From Sulfitobacter sp. F26169L (lineage in GTDB: Bacteria > Pseudomonadota > Alphaproteobacteria > Rhodobacterales > Rhodobacteraceae), in assembly GCF_026410285.1 (NCBI RefSeq), contig NZ_JAPMLP010000004.1:282036-346035 (forward strand): 64,000 bases of DNA, read 5' to 3'. The position numbers were made by a program, and so were the translations under genes. The notes under the pieces were generated by a model. That model ran no database searches, was not told where the DNA came from, and worked only from the letters and a program-made list of their open reading frames with translations. Positions 53,285 to 58,519 of this stretch are shown here, one piece after another; position 1 is the stretch's first letter, and each line of letters starts with the position of its first letter.

Positions 53285-54904
53285 TTAGGCCTTTCCGATA
53301 GCAGTTTTCAGGGCTGTAGCAACCGCGTCAGCGTTATAGTCGGGCCAGCGTGCTACGATGTGTTGATCGGGACGGATAAGATAAACTGCACAGGGGTGCG
53401 CACCCAGATACCGCGCCCTCATGGCGTCGGACGGCGCTTTGATGTTCACTGCATTTGCCAAAACGCCGTGCGCTTTCAGATCGTCGGCCATGCATCCGAT
53501 TGCCAGCAAGGTAAATTCGCCGCCCAGCCGCTCCAGAATATAGCCGTCAAGATGGGGCGCGTCGGGGCAAGCCATGCCAGGCTGCGTACCTTCCGGGCCT
53601 TGCAGGGCATCTTCGCCAAACAGGTCAAATCCGATATAGTTACAAGGCACAGACAGACGGCCCGAATTGACCAAAGGCCGCGCGAAGGCATGTCTATTCG
53701 CCAGATCCAGAACCGCATTCCGGAAGGTTTTGGAGACATCGGATTTCGGCGTCATAAAATCTGTCGCACGGGAGGAGTTGAGGATATTTTCGTCTGCCGC
53801 GTGTTGACGCTCCGTGGCGTAGGTATCCAGCAAGTTTGGCTCGGCGAGGCCTTTCAGCACCAGATCAAGTTTCCATGCCAGATTATCAGCATCCTGCACG
53901 CCCGAATTCGCACCGCGTGCGCCGAAGGGGGATACCTGATGTGCGCTGTCGCCAGCAAAGATCACATTACCATGGCGGAACTTCTTCATCCGGCGGCACT
54001 GGAACGTGTAAATCGAAGTCCACTCAAGTTCGTACTCCGGCACATGACCGGCCTGCGACGATAACATCGCATCCACACGGGCGCGGATGCGCGCGGGGTC
54101 CAGCTCTACTTCGCGGTCAATATCCCAGCCCAGTTGAAAATCGATGCGCCAGATATCGTCGGGCTGTTTGTGCAGCAGCGCAGATTGACCGGCGTTCTCA
54201 AAAGGCGGTTCAAACCAGAACCACCGCTCGGTCGGAAAATCTGCTTTCATATGTACATCGGCGATCAGGAAGTTGTCCTCAAAGACACGTCCGTCAAAGC
54301 TTAACCCCATCATGTCGCGCAGTGGCGAGCGCGCGCCATCACATGCGATCAGATAGTCGGCCTCAAGTTGATAGCTGCCGTCCGGTGTGTTCACCGTCAG
54401 GGTGCTGTAGGTGCCGTGATTTTCCAATGCAGTGACGCAGTTGCGGCCACGAATCTCGATCGGGGCGCCAGCGGATTGGGCCGCATTTATTGCATCGCAG
54501 AGAAACTTTTCGAAATACGGCTGTTGCAGATTGATAAAGGCCGGGTTGCGATGCCCGGCTTCCGGTTGCAGATCAAAGTCGTAAATTTTCTGGTCGGCGT
54601 GAAACACTTTGCCAACATTCCAGACGACGCCTTTGTCCACCATTTGCTGGCACGCGCCAAGGCGGTTGGCGATGTCGAGGGTGCGTTTGGCAAAACAGAT
54701 CGCTTTTGATCCTAGACCCGCGCCATCGTGATCATCCAACACCAGCACGGGCGTACCTTTTTTCCCCAGATCAAGTGCAAGTGTCAGCCCCACAGGACCT
54801 CCCCCCACGATCACAACAGGGTGACGGGTTGCTGTACCTTCCTGCGCTGCAATTCTGGTGTAGGGGTAAAGCTGAAAGGCGGTCTTATAGCGTTCTGCAA
54901 GCAT
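53285..54904 (-). CDS. FAD-dependent aromatic monooxygenase
   Basis: The 539-residue protein is a class A flavin monooxygenase. The FAD-binding GGGPVG (residues 34-39), the DG-motif CDGARSPLR and the GDSAHQVSPFGARGAN motif are present, plus a C-terminal thioredoxin-like domain as in MhpA-type hydroxylases. The ATG at 54904 has GGGAG upstream. In this cluster it may make a homogentisate-pathway substrate, for example from a hydroxyphenylacetate, but the substrate is inferred. Confidence 0.85.
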   Translation of the reverse strand: MLAERYKTAFQLYPYTRIAAQEGTATRHPVVIVGGGPVGLTLALDLGKKGTPVLVLDDHDGAGLGSKAICFAKRTLDIANRLGACQQMVDKGVVWNVGKVFHADQKIYDFDLQPEAGHRNPAFINLQQPYFEKFLCDAINAAQSAGAPIEIRGRNCVTALENHGTYSTLTVNTPDGSYQLEADYLIACDGARSPLRDMMGLSFDGRVFEDNFLIADVHMKADFPTERWFWFEPPFENAGQSALLHKQPDDIWRIDFQLGWDIDREVELDPARIRARVDAMLSSQAGHVPEYELEWTSIYTFQCRRMKKFRHGNVIFAGDSAHQVSPFGARGANSGVQDADNLAWKLDLVLKGLAEPNLLDTYATERQHAADENILNSSRATDFMTPKSDVSKTFRNAVLDLANRHAFARPLVNSGRLSVPCNYIGFDLFGEDALQGPEGTQPGMACPDAPHLDGYILERLGGEFTLLAIGCMADDLKAHGVLANAVNIKAPSDAMRARYLGAHPCAVYLIRPDQHIVARWPDYNADAVATALKTAIGKA

Positions 54905-54965: not shown

Positions 54966-55916
54966 CTAGCCCTGCAAGGCGGCCCACATTTCCAAATCAC
55001 GCTCGGCGGTCCAGATGCGCGGGTGGGTAATGCCGCGGGCCTCGTCATACGCGCGGGCCACGTTGAACGGCAGGCAGTGCTCATAAATTGCGTAATCCGA
55101 AAATTTCGGGTCACATTCTGCGCGCACGGCGTCCCAGGCCTGTTTCAACGTGCCACCCTGGGCGGCAACGCGCGCAGCGGGTGCGTAGGTGGAGTTTACG
55201 AAATCGCGCGTGCTTTCAATCGCGCGGTTCACGGCCTCCTTGCCAATCAGCGCGCCCCCCCGACCGGGGGCGATGGAATTCACTTCAAACGCCTTGATCG
55301 CGTCCAGCGTGTTGCCCCAATCGGCAAAATGTCCGTCACCGCAGTAGCAGGCGGAGTGGTCCTCGACGATGTCGCCGGTGAACATCACGTTTTCATCCGG
55401 CACATGAATCACAATATCGCCAGCTGTGTGCGCGCGCCCAAGGTGCATCAAATCAACGCGCCGGTTGCCCAGATAGACCGTCATACGGTCGTTGAACGTG
55501 GTGGTGGGAAAGGTCAGTCCGGGGATGCTCTCATGTCCCTCGAACAGGCGGGGAAAGCGTTGGAATTCGGAGTCCCAGTCATCCTGACCGCGTTCCATCA
55601 CCATGCCGCGGGCGGCTTCGCCCATGATGATCTGATCGGCACCATACGCCGATGCCCCCAGCACGCGAACAGCGTGATAATGGGTCAGCACGACATGGCT
55701 GATCGGCTTGTCGGTGACTTCGCGCACCTTTTCGATAACCTTGTTGGCAAGGCGCGGGGTTGCCTGCGCCTCAACGATCATCACGCTGTCTTCGCCGATA
55801 ATCACGCCCGAGTTAGGATCGCCTTCTGCAGTGAAGGCCCACAGATCGCGGCCGATCTCGTCGAAGGTTATTGTTTTTTCGCTCATGTCGCCTTGAGAGG
55901 CAAATGCTTTGGCCAT
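54966..55916 (-). CDS. MBL-fold metallo-hydrolase
   Basis: The 316-residue protein has a metallo-beta-lactamase-like fold. The usual HxHxDH motif is altered to HYHAVR (about residues 79-84), while the downstream HTAGD and the GDIVEDH segment are kept; the pattern is similar to SoxH/quinoprotein-relay subfamilies. Whether it binds two metals is uncertain. The first ATG at 55916 is kept; an ATG at 55886 is possible. It lies between fumarylacetoacetase and the monooxygenase. Confidence 0.75.
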   Translation of the reverse strand: MAKAFASQGDMSEKTITFDEIGRDLWAFTAEGDPNSGVIIGEDSVMIVEAQATPRLANKVIEKVREVTDKPISHVVLTHYHAVRVLGASAYGADQIIMGEAARGMVMERGQDDWDSEFQRFPRLFEGHESIPGLTFPTTTFNDRMTVYLGNRRVDLMHLGRAHTAGDIVIHVPDENVMFTGDIVEDHSACYCGDGHFADWGNTLDAIKAFEVNSIAPGRGGALIGKEAVNRAIESTRDFVNSTYAPAARVAAQGGTLKQAWDAVRAECDPKFSDYAIYEHCLPFNVARAYDEARGITHPRIWTAERDLEMWAALQG

Positions 55917-55937: not shown

Positions 55938-57191
55938 TTACGTGAATTTGACGGCAGGCAGGATCGTGGCGGTACACGTGCCGAAACCGATCTGATAGCC
56001 GTCACCCTTTGCCGCGCCGTGCAGGGTCAGCGTATCGCCATCCTCGATAAAGCTGCGGGTCTGGCCTCCCCCGATGTCAATCGGCTCTTTCCCGCCCCAT
56101 GACATCTCAAGCAGGCTACCGCGCTGGTTCTTCTCAACGCCGGAGATGGTGCCGGAACCTAGCAGATCACCGGGGGTCATGGCGCAGCCGGAGCTTGCGT
56201 GATGCGCCAGTTGCTGTGCGGCTGAGTAATACATCTCGTTGTAGTTCGTCTCGCAGATCGTCACTTCCTTGCCATCTCGGGGCTGAAGCGTGACGCTGAG
56301 ATCAATGTCATAGAGCATCGGCTTGGGCTCTTGCAGGTGAGGCAGAAGCTCCTTTTCACGCTCTGGCGTAGAGGTGCGGAACGGCTCGAGTGCGGCGCGG
56401 GTAACAATCCACGGGGAAATAGAGGTGGCGAATGCTTTGGCCTGAAACGGGCCAAGTGGCTGATATTCCCAAGCCTGAATGTCGCGTGCGGACCAGTCGT
56501 TCAGGAGAACATAGCCAAAGATCATTTCGTCCGCTTGCGTCACGCTTACCGGATGCCCCATTTCGGAACCCGTTCCCACAATCGCGCCCATTTCAAGCTC
56601 GATGTCCAGACGCTTGCAGGGGCCGAAGCTTGGTGTGTCAGCGTCCGGTGCTTTGGTTTGCCCGTTGGGGCGCACGACATCCGTGCCCGAAACTACTACG
56701 GTCGAGGCACGGCCGTTATACCCGATCGGAATATGCAGCCAGTTCGGAGGTAACGCATTTTCCGCGCCGCGAAACATGGTGCCGACGTTTACAGCGTGGT
56801 TCTTGCCAGCGTAGAAATCGGTGAACTCGGCCACTACCATCGGCAGTTCCATGCGTGCATCCGACATGGGCACCAGCAAGGGCGCAACTGCGGCCTGCTC
56901 GGCGGCGCCTTCGGCCAGCAATTGGATCAGGCGGCTGCGCAGGGCGTCCCATGCCTCGGGTCCCAATTCCATCACGTCGTTCCAATAAGGCACGTCAAAC
57001 ACCGCATCTTCGGCCAGTTCGATCAGGCCAGCCTCTTCGGCGGCGAACATGTCAAGGATCATGTCACCGATGGCAACGCCACAACGGGGTTCCAGACTGT
57101 TGGTCGCAAACACGCCATAGGGCAAATTGTTGAGCGGGAACTGGCTGTCGACGCTGTTTGCGCTCTCTACCCATGATTTCTGTAGTGGCAT
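55938..57191 (-). CDS. fahA: Fumarylacetoacetase
   Basis: FahA (417 residues) hydrolyses fumarylacetoacetate to fumarate and acetoacetate, the last step of tyrosine/homogentisate breakdown. The motifs DFYAGKNHAVNVG, GSEMGHP and DWSARDIQAWEYQPLGPF carry catalytic and metal residues. The ATG at 57191 has AGGAAAT upstream. Its gene appears intact, unlike hmgA next to it. Confidence 0.93.
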   Translation of the reverse strand: MPLQKSWVESANSVDSQFPLNNLPYGVFATNSLEPRCGVAIGDMILDMFAAEEAGLIELAEDAVFDVPYWNDVMELGPEAWDALRSRLIQLLAEGAAEQAAVAPLLVPMSDARMELPMVVAEFTDFYAGKNHAVNVGTMFRGAENALPPNWLHIPIGYNGRASTVVVSGTDVVRPNGQTKAPDADTPSFGPCKRLDIELEMGAIVGTGSEMGHPVSVTQADEMIFGYVLLNDWSARDIQAWEYQPLGPFQAKAFATSISPWIVTRAALEPFRTSTPEREKELLPHLQEPKPMLYDIDLSVTLQPRDGKEVTICETNYNEMYYSAAQQLAHHASSGCAMTPGDLLGSGTISGVEKNQRGSLLEMSWGGKEPIDIGGGQTRSFIEDGDTLTLHGAAKGDGYQIGFGTCTATILPAVKFT

Positions 57192-57233: not shown

Positions 57234-57416
57234 TTAGCCGCCGCCATCTGCGCTGCCGCTGTCTCCTTCAAGGCGGCCATCCCCGCCGCCCACATGCCAA
57301 ACGTCGGACTTATCCCCCGGTTTACGAGGAGGACGCGCGCCGCGCCGTATGTCATGAAACATGATGATGGCGGAGATTATAGTAAACGCGATGACGGCGA
57401 AAAAAATTCCTTTATT
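57234..57416 (-). pseudogene. Possible small membrane ORF without a start codon
   Basis: On the minus strand an open stretch ending at 57234 encodes a hydrophobic segment, GIFFAVIAFTIISAIIMF, followed by basic and Gly-rich residues. No ATG, GTG or TTG begins it; NKGIFF is preceded by an ACA codon where a start would fit. It lies between fahA and hmgA and may be a decayed gene or chance. Confidence 0.35.
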
Positions 57417-58016
57417 TGTTGTCCCGTGCGCCGGCGGGCTTGTTTTCTAAATTGGCACAGTAATTGATGTAGTCGTCCTGCACTGGTGCTTCTTTCGCGG
57501 CAAAGGCAGCCAGATACCGGGAGAGAACCCTGTTTCGAACGTAACTGACATGGTGTTGCCTAGCTCTTCGACACGGTACACAATGCCGAGCGGGATAGTG
57601 ATGGTTTCCTGAGGCTCGATTTGTTTCACGCCCGGTTCCGTACCAAAATGCACGCACCCTTCTTGCGGAACAACCAGCAATTCGGAATCCGCAGGGTAGA
57701 AATTTAGATCCTTCATGGATGCAGTGACAAGATCGAAATTGCTTGTCACTCCGACCTGCGTTTCAACATCGCTTGCCGTCGTCATGGTGCGCATGCCCGT
57801 TGATCCTGAAGGCTGGATACCATAACTGCGAAAGCCGCTAAGTTGCTCGCCGTACAGACCGTAGTTTGCTTTTTGGGGTGAATTCATGTCGCGGGTCAAT
57901 GCGCCTGAAAGCCCCGCTGTTTCAAAGTCGTTGCCGAAACCGTGTATGTAACACCCAGTGCTGGCCACAGGCGTCGGGGCAGTTTGGAGCCCAGACGGAG
58001 AAGTCTCATTGTGCAT
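57412..58016 (-). pseudogene. hmgA: Homogentisate 1,2-dioxygenase, disrupted
   Basis: The remaining sequence starts at the ATG at 58016 with a good GGAGG site and reads through the known HmgA N-terminus (GFGNDFETAGLSGAL, then NYGLYGEQLSG), jumps to GMRTMTTASDVETQVG, continues through ADSELLVVPQEG to VYRVEE, and then joins LGNTMSVTFETGF from the C-terminal end. The last piece, AAFAAKEAPVQDDYINYC, is in another frame. A normal HmgA is about 430-450 residues; here two internal deletions and a frameshift leave about 200, and the iron-ligand region is gone. It is thus inactive. Confidence 0.85.
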
Positions 58017-58047
58017 GCGAACCTCCACCACATAATGCCACACGGTT

Positions 58048-58076
58048 ATTGGTTTGATATGTAACTAACAACCAGT
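58048..58076. promoter_or_regulatory. Possible MarR operator between hmgA and its regulator
   Basis: ATTGGTT (58048-58054) and AACCAGT (58070-58076) form an inverted repeat with one mismatch and a 15-base spacer in the 71-base divergent gap. Confidence 0.35.
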
Positions 58077-58087
58077 AAGTTGATGCT

Positions 58088-58519
58088 ATGAGCAATCCAG
58101 AGTTCAATTTAGATCAGTTTTTGCCTTATGTGCTTAGCCGCGCAGCCGAAGCGTCAAGCCTTGGCTTTCAGAAATTTTACCGCCAGCGCTACGGTATGCT
58201 GCGCACGGAATGGCGGGTTCTGTTTCACTTGGGGCGTTACGGTGACATGACCGCAAAAGCTGTGTGCGAACGGGCCAGTCTGCACAAAACCAAAGTAAGC
58301 CGCGCGGTGCGAGCTTTGGAAAAGAAGCGATTTTTATCGCGCACGCGGCAAGAGCATGACCGCAGGCACGAGACTTTGTCGCTCACGCGACACGGGCTGG
58401 TCGTTTATACGGATTTGCAGCAGTTGGCAAAAGAGTACGATGCAAAACTGGCGTCCCGCTTTACCCCGCAAGAGCGGGAGGTATTGAACCGCTGTCTGGA
58501 CAAAATTACTAAGTTGTAG
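58088..58519 (+). CDS. MarR-family regulator (probably HmgR)
   Basis: The 143-residue protein has a winged helix-turn-helix domain with AKAVCERASLHKTKVSRAVR (about residues 57-76), followed by the wing with RTRQEHDRRHE. It is divergent from hmgA, in the place of the homogentisate regulator HmgR. The gene appears intact although its main target is broken. It ends in a strong bidirectional terminator. Confidence 0.85.
   Translation: MSNPEFNLDQFLPYVLSRAAEASSLGFQKFYRQRYGMLRTEWRVLFHLGRYGDMTAKAVCERASLHKTKVSRAVRALEKKRFLSRTRQEHDRRHETLSLTRHGLVVYTDLQQLAKEYDAKLASRFTPQEREVLNRCLDKITKL

Follow-up and report, generated by a model that had tools for sequence, protein, structure and literature searches.

A decayed homogentisate dioxygenase gene in the native cluster of a Sulfitobacter genome that carries a second, complete gene set

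Does a visibly broken hmgA gene in a catabolic gene cluster mean that the bacterium has lost the breakdown of tyrosine? This question is raised by a stretch of 64,000 nucleotides from Sulfitobacter sp. F26169L (contig NZ_JAPMLP010000004.1, positions 282,036 to 346,035; hereafter the window), in which a first-pass annotation, made from the sequence alone, described the homogentisate 1,2-dioxygenase gene hmgA as a deletion pseudogene.

The hmgA remnant extends from position 57412 to 58016 of the window on the minus strand, exactly where it had been placed, and was compared with its orthologous counterparts in those eight relatives whose monooxygenase, encoded in the same cluster, is most similar (81–85% identity). 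In the alignment, the same insertions and deletions were counted against all eight. The reading frame starts with the ATG at 58016 and runs through 189 codons to a stop at 57447–57449 (minus strand). Soon after the codons for QLSG, one additional nucleotide is present at 57833, and a 169-nt deletion (junction at 57803–57804, minus strand) puts the frame right again; both together remove a net 56 codons, which agrees with the approximately 55 residues reported as lost after NYGLYGEQLSG. A second deletion of 591 nt or 197 codons (junction at 57565–57566, minus strand) is in frame, joins VEE to LGNTM and takes out the iron-ligand region. Near the 3′ end, a 2-nt insertion (57527–57528, minus strand) puts the C-terminal tail out of frame, so that translation ends approximately 12 codons before the old end of the gene, while the former C-terminus (...LAAFAAKEAPVQDDYINYCANLENKPAGARDNK) carries on in a different frame as far as the original stop at 57412. 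The reported loss of most of the C-terminal half at the VEE/LGNTM joint, followed by a frameshift, is thereby borne out.

The remnant protein matched only HgmA_N in Pfam (93.8 bits) and reached 94.2 bits with TIGR01015, far below the cut-off of 510.75 for a full-length match; scored singly, its two pieces yielded 55.5 and 37.7 bits. The iron ligands of the Pseudomonas putida enzyme, which we take to be H331, E337 and H367 in line with the alignment, correspond to H347, E353 and H383 of a second HmgA encoded on contig 11 of the same genome. The remnant is not an enzyme, because these three ligands fall within the 197 codons absent from it; judged from its sequence, the window copy is incapable of coding for a dioxygenase.

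That the genome is a draft of 30 contigs might suggest an assembly or sequencing artefact, an explanation to which we assign hardly any probability: the locus sits within a long contig, and the retained codons carry many substitutions, which are not the product of an assembly fault. Over these codons, dN between the remnant and the eight relatives was 0.22–0.24 in contrast to 0.04–0.05 among the relatives (three comparisons), which argues against a sequencing slip, and at 136 of the 197 retained codons the remnant departs from the codon most frequent in the relatives, with an altered amino acid at 70 of them. A codon model with two omega values, fitted to 161 of the 197 codons (without the first 20 and those around the +1 and +2 insertions) on a single topology, a nine-taxon guide tree with many poorly supported inner nodes, and with iterations limited to 80 per fit, gave an omega of 0.134 for the window branch and 0.013 elsewhere (lnL −2286.2). 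The fit was poorer with one omega (lnL −2300.9) or with omega set to 1 on the window branch (lnL −2300.5); the value of 2ΔlnL between the two-omega and the one-omega model, about 29.5, is approximate, the window branch length in the latter being at its upper limit. As the average omega over the branch is well under 1, most of the window branch is read as spent under constraint, and the excess on it corresponds to approximately 0.16 neutral changes per site according to our own arithmetic. With an intact orthologue in relatives, disabling changes and relaxed selection, the remnant is a true pseudogene.

The comparison with relatives proposed by the first-pass annotation also identified the locus itself. 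An uninterrupted hmgA is flanked in all eight by the genes for PCuAC, the MarR regulator, FahA, the metallo-beta-lactamase-fold hydrolase and the FAD monooxygenase in the syntenic place; the shared gene order therefore marks the window locus as the native homogentisate cluster of the genus Sulfitobacter. Six of the eight stretches carry a DegP-like gene on the side where the window has it, and L074 carries it on the opposite side; no such gene was seen in the stretch covered for L076. The native cluster consists of MarR, hmgA, fahA, metallo-hydrolase and FAD monooxygenase genes, to which a maiA-like gene is added in close relatives.

The neighbours FahA, monooxygenase, hydrolase and MarR regulator had been called intact, and profile scores and low dN/dS values confirm this for each of them. 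The fumarylacetoacetase gene fahA (55938–57191, minus strand) scored 531 bits with TIGR01266 (cut-off 375), with dN/dS of 0.03–0.09; the metallo-hydrolase gene (54966–55916, minus strand; PF00753) showed dN/dS of 0.02–0.03 and encodes the most conserved protein of the cluster (95–97% identity to the eight nearest relatives); the gene for the FAD-dependent aromatic monooxygenase-like protein of the PRK08132 subfamily (53285–54904, minus strand; 732 bits, cut-off 416) showed 0.04–0.07 in the six of eight comparisons in which dN/dS was computable; and that of the MarR-family regulator, a putative hmgR (58088–58519, plus strand), showed 0.07–0.09 in the two of eight, synonymous sites being at or near saturation in many of all these comparisons. 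The solved structures nearest to the monooxygenase by sequence are polyketide and phenolic oxygenases with modest scores (127 bits at best). Genomes G008, G010, G019, G051 and G077 (L093–L101, L103) carry a monooxygenase gene of the window type far from a MarR-hmgA-fahA-hydrolase cluster, and the two parts of the native cluster are therefore separable.

The description of the cluster as otherwise intact holds for these four genes but is a little too favourable in view of two others. The maiA-like gene that comes after the monooxygenase gene in all eight relatives has no orthologue in the window genome, where the best match (46% identity) lies on contig 11, and no significant match within the window (best E 0.63); therefore two native genes are gone, not one. 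Moreover, a homologue of the small membrane ORF that follows hmgA in several relatives has lost its start codon and is present as a stop-to-stop frame only (57234–57446, minus strand). By eye, this ORF consists of one transmembrane segment and a Gly/Asp-rich tail; its overlap with the stop codon of hmgA is seen in several relatives, and the three relatives' versions searched matched no Pfam family above cut-off. It was seen after hmgA in the relatives' loci L073, L074, L077 and L078.

The intergenic region between marR and hmgA (58017–58087) contains an operator-like inverted repeat, TTAGTT-N8-AACCAA, at 58049–58068 (TTAGTTACATATCAAACCAA), which mostly reads TTAGTT-N8-AACTAA in relatives. The motif TTAGTT-N(6-10)-AA[CT][CT]AA was found within 160 bases before hmgA in 16 of 36 scanned loci (L073–L088) and was absent from the other 20, contig 11 among them; as the motif was chosen from those same relatives, this count is purely descriptive. 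The repeat fits a MarR operator that may still control the native operon. Its presence, together with the start codon and the GGAGG motif of a ribosome-binding site still found in the remnant, would also suit a different reading of the pseudogene, namely that it has been retained as a translated leader through which ribosomes and RNA polymerase reach fahA and the metallo-hydrolase and monooxygenase genes without polarity. The compensation of the additional nucleotide by the 169-nt deletion, the in-frame 591-nt deletion and the lack of any in-frame stop in the 197 retained codons point in the same direction. However, a stop-free frame is not improbable under neutral decay: of 2000 simulated runs each, 228 kept it at 0.16 changes per site and 467 at 0.10, and the analytic chance was 0.01–0.19 depending on the assumptions (0.01–0.23 for all estimates together). 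By our own arithmetic, the correct frame after two deletions arises by chance in about one of nine cases, and the 2-nt insertion does disrupt the frame some 12 codons before the old gene end. The stop-free frame thus fits neutral decay only moderately but is compatible with chance according to the codon model and the simulation, for which reason a retained leader is kept as a rival of low probability.

Contig 11 of the same genome carries a full-length hmgA of 451 aa (C11:314789–316141, minus strand), which scored 636.2 bits with TIGR01015 (cut-off 511) and retains all three metal ligands in the alignment to the P. putida enzyme. It thus has the sequence features, full-length match and ligands, of a predicted homogentisate 1,2-dioxygenase. 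A maiA gene (257 bits, cut-off 171) and a second fahA (499 bits, cut-off 375) are located downstream of this hmgA, and a divergent MarR gene of its own upstream. Since a gene for 4-hydroxyphenylpyruvate dioxygenase (HPPD) is present on contig C24 (358 bits, cut-off 277), all steps that turn 4-hydroxyphenylpyruvate into fumarate and acetoacetate would be present on paper in the window genome. Beside this second set, contig 11 (L007 1568–5281) harbours two pirin-like genes, one esterase-like gene and one gene resembling a VOC-family ring-cleaving dioxygenase; these putative names are taken from the sequences, and the group is reminiscent of quinone detoxification sets.

The first-pass annotation had advised a search of the genome for a second hmgA and had otherwise expected that the breakdown of tyrosine and phenylalanine would be blocked without HmgA, with homogentisate accumulating and giving rise to pyomelanin. 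The window copy, unable to encode a dioxygenase, and the HPPD present to make homogentisate would be in keeping with this expectation, but the search returned the full-length gene beside maiA and the second fahA, and with hmgA, maiA and fahA all intact in this second set we regard the block as very improbable. Because of this set, and with HPPD also present, neither a block nor pyomelanin is predicted. A natural pyomelanin producer, understood as a genome with no full-length hmgA, is not what we find here.

Instead, the native hmgA has very probably decayed as a redundant gene beside the second complete set, and what is left of it is an ordinary redundant pseudogene, not the sign of a lost pathway. 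We propose that the MarR, hmgA, maiA and fahA genes elsewhere made the native hmgA redundant, presumably as an operon that arrived by horizontal transfer before the native gene decayed. Released from constraint, the redundant copy would then have gathered small indels and two large deletions in addition to point changes. The maiA homologue of the native set most likely disappeared entirely after it, too, had become redundant. Homogentisate would now be opened by the HmgA of contig 11, provided that this enzyme is expressed and active as inferred.

The second set was likely acquired horizontally. A FahA of the contig-11 type (87–90% identity; next best 73%) occurs in four of 62 genomes of the genus, i.e. 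the window genome (G000), G023, G049 and G077, and forms a clade of 100% support separate from the window FahA. TRAP transporter, IclR and MarR genes adjoin hmgA in all four loci, with maiA between hmgA and fahA in L007 and L105; maiA was not found in L102 or L107. In S. pontiacus EE-36, genes for TRAP, IclR, MarR, HmgA, MaiA and FahA also stand together, in an unchanged gene order, on the plasmid pls1 (CP144550.1, 349,750 bp, typed as non-mobilizable). A patchy distribution and a lineage of its own are therefore seen for FahA, the HmgA tree being less clear in this respect, but a compositional island is not: no sharp G+C island appeared in the 15 kb profiled around the set (0.53–0.60). The nucleotide identity between the contig-11 set and the other loci of its type is 71–82%, and these values, together with the lack of an island in the profiled stretch, disfavour a recent transfer from one donor. 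In the HmgA tree, the copies of G000 and G023 are placed apart from those of G049 and G077, unlike in the FahA tree, both trees having low support at many inner nodes; owing to this disagreement on the four loci, no donor is claimed.

The same two observations, the missing island and the only moderate identity to the other loci, would also be in line with a variant of our explanation, in which the two hmgA loci go back to an ancient duplication within the lineage followed by many losses in other species. An old paralogue of this kind, or a mosaic, is a possible alternative to transfer. We nevertheless hold the duplication to be the less likely origin by a clear distance, given the patchy distribution (4/62), the MarR, IclR and TRAP neighbours that the contig-11 set has to itself, the existence of a plasmid-borne relative and an identity of just 67% between the FahA proteins of the window and contig 11.

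How often one of two hmgA loci decays was assessed in a family sample, in which 132 of 198 genomes, the window genome included, had an hmgA match and nine of them more than one. G209 was omitted from the following counts, as its two pieces look like one gene split over two contigs. One long and one broken or fragmentary hmgA were present in five of the remaining eight two-locus genomes (G000, G097, G158, G227 and G249), or in four of seven without the window genome; the least certain of these is G097, whose second match is 57% identical and has none of the searched cluster neighbours. Two long copies were found in three of the eight: G182, G195 (completeness 78, contamination 5) and G229 (contamination 4). 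Within the genus, no copy is visibly broken in four other genomes with two loci (G007, G023, G049 and G077), which is evidence against decay of one copy as a general rule; G023, G049 and G077 keep a full-length or nearly full-length hmgA of the native type. In G249, hmgA was lost from the locus beside TRAP and IclR. G158, a member of another genus, repeats the situation of the window: its fahA, metallo-hydrolase and monooxygenase genes are intact and preceded by an hmgA fragment of 52 residues, and elsewhere the genome has a full hmgA-maiA-fahA set. Two further genomes have a single hmgA match with one in-frame stop (G078:C12:56730–58034 and G154:C80:58009–59325), which may be pseudogenes or sequencing faults. 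The window genome thus provides a clear case of hmgA turnover in a family whose two-locus genomes often have one broken copy.

Because the same cluster in G158 has also lost its hmgA, the fahA, hydrolase and monooxygenase genes suggest a role independent of the local hmgA, and it is the uncharacterised pair of metallo-hydrolase and FAD monooxygenase that is retained when the local hmgA goes. A more specific proposal is that these native genes form a peripheral pathway which starts from an aromatic substrate other than tyrosine and delivers homogentisate or something related to it; they would be selected whichever hmgA serves, the latter being interchangeable and the remnant perhaps a leader. 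We put this forward tentatively and consider it rather doubtful. It may be that G018 (S. undariae; L074) obtains homogentisate from another substrate: its hmgA-fahA-hydrolase-monooxygenase cluster is intact, and no HPPD exceeded the cut-off in this draft of about 40 contigs (best 21.9 bits), a combination that would fit another source there. In G072, HPPD is present (351 bits). A different pattern was observed in G065, a Sulfitobacter genome of four contigs and completeness 100, which has an HPPD above the cut-off (389 bits) and a fahA, with no hmgA match and no monooxygenase of the window type at E 1e-60. It is this genome, not that of the window, which is a candidate for natural homogentisate accumulation.

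The corrected prediction implies that a pathway should not be taken as lost on account of a pseudogene in its catabolic cluster before the rest of the genome has been checked. Loss-of-function mutations of hmgA are reported to lead to pyomelanin, for example in Vibrio anguillarum 531Ad, Bacillus anthracis and Burkholderia cenocepacia (PMC6787238, PMC4457819, PMC11218447). A broken homogentisate 1,2-dioxygenase gene is common to those alleles and the window; however, the window genome has an intact second set, so that no pyomelanin is expected from it, and its break is an old one that carries many substitutions, not a recent mutation at strain level. An apparently incomplete homogentisate pathway is reported for two further strains of Sulfitobacter (PMC4031333). 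Among the literature matches listed for homogentisate/hmgA, pyomelanin, Sulfitobacter, Roseobacter and Rhodobacteraceae, there was no paper on an hmgA displacement of this kind. In Burkholderia xenovorans LB400, 3- and 4-hydroxyphenylacetate are reported to feed the homogentisate pathway (PMC3053370). Both systems share a central route of hmgA and fahA that peripheral aromatic hydroxylases can feed; the window monooxygenase belongs to the PRK08132 subfamily. Replacing horizontal transfer, or pseudogenisation in the wake of redundancy, is a general concept (PMC11375855). Two homologous sets per genome, with part of the older one decayed, are what the window genome has in common with this concept, whereas its native set has lost only hmgA and maiA, and fahA, hydrolase and monooxygenase genes stay in place.
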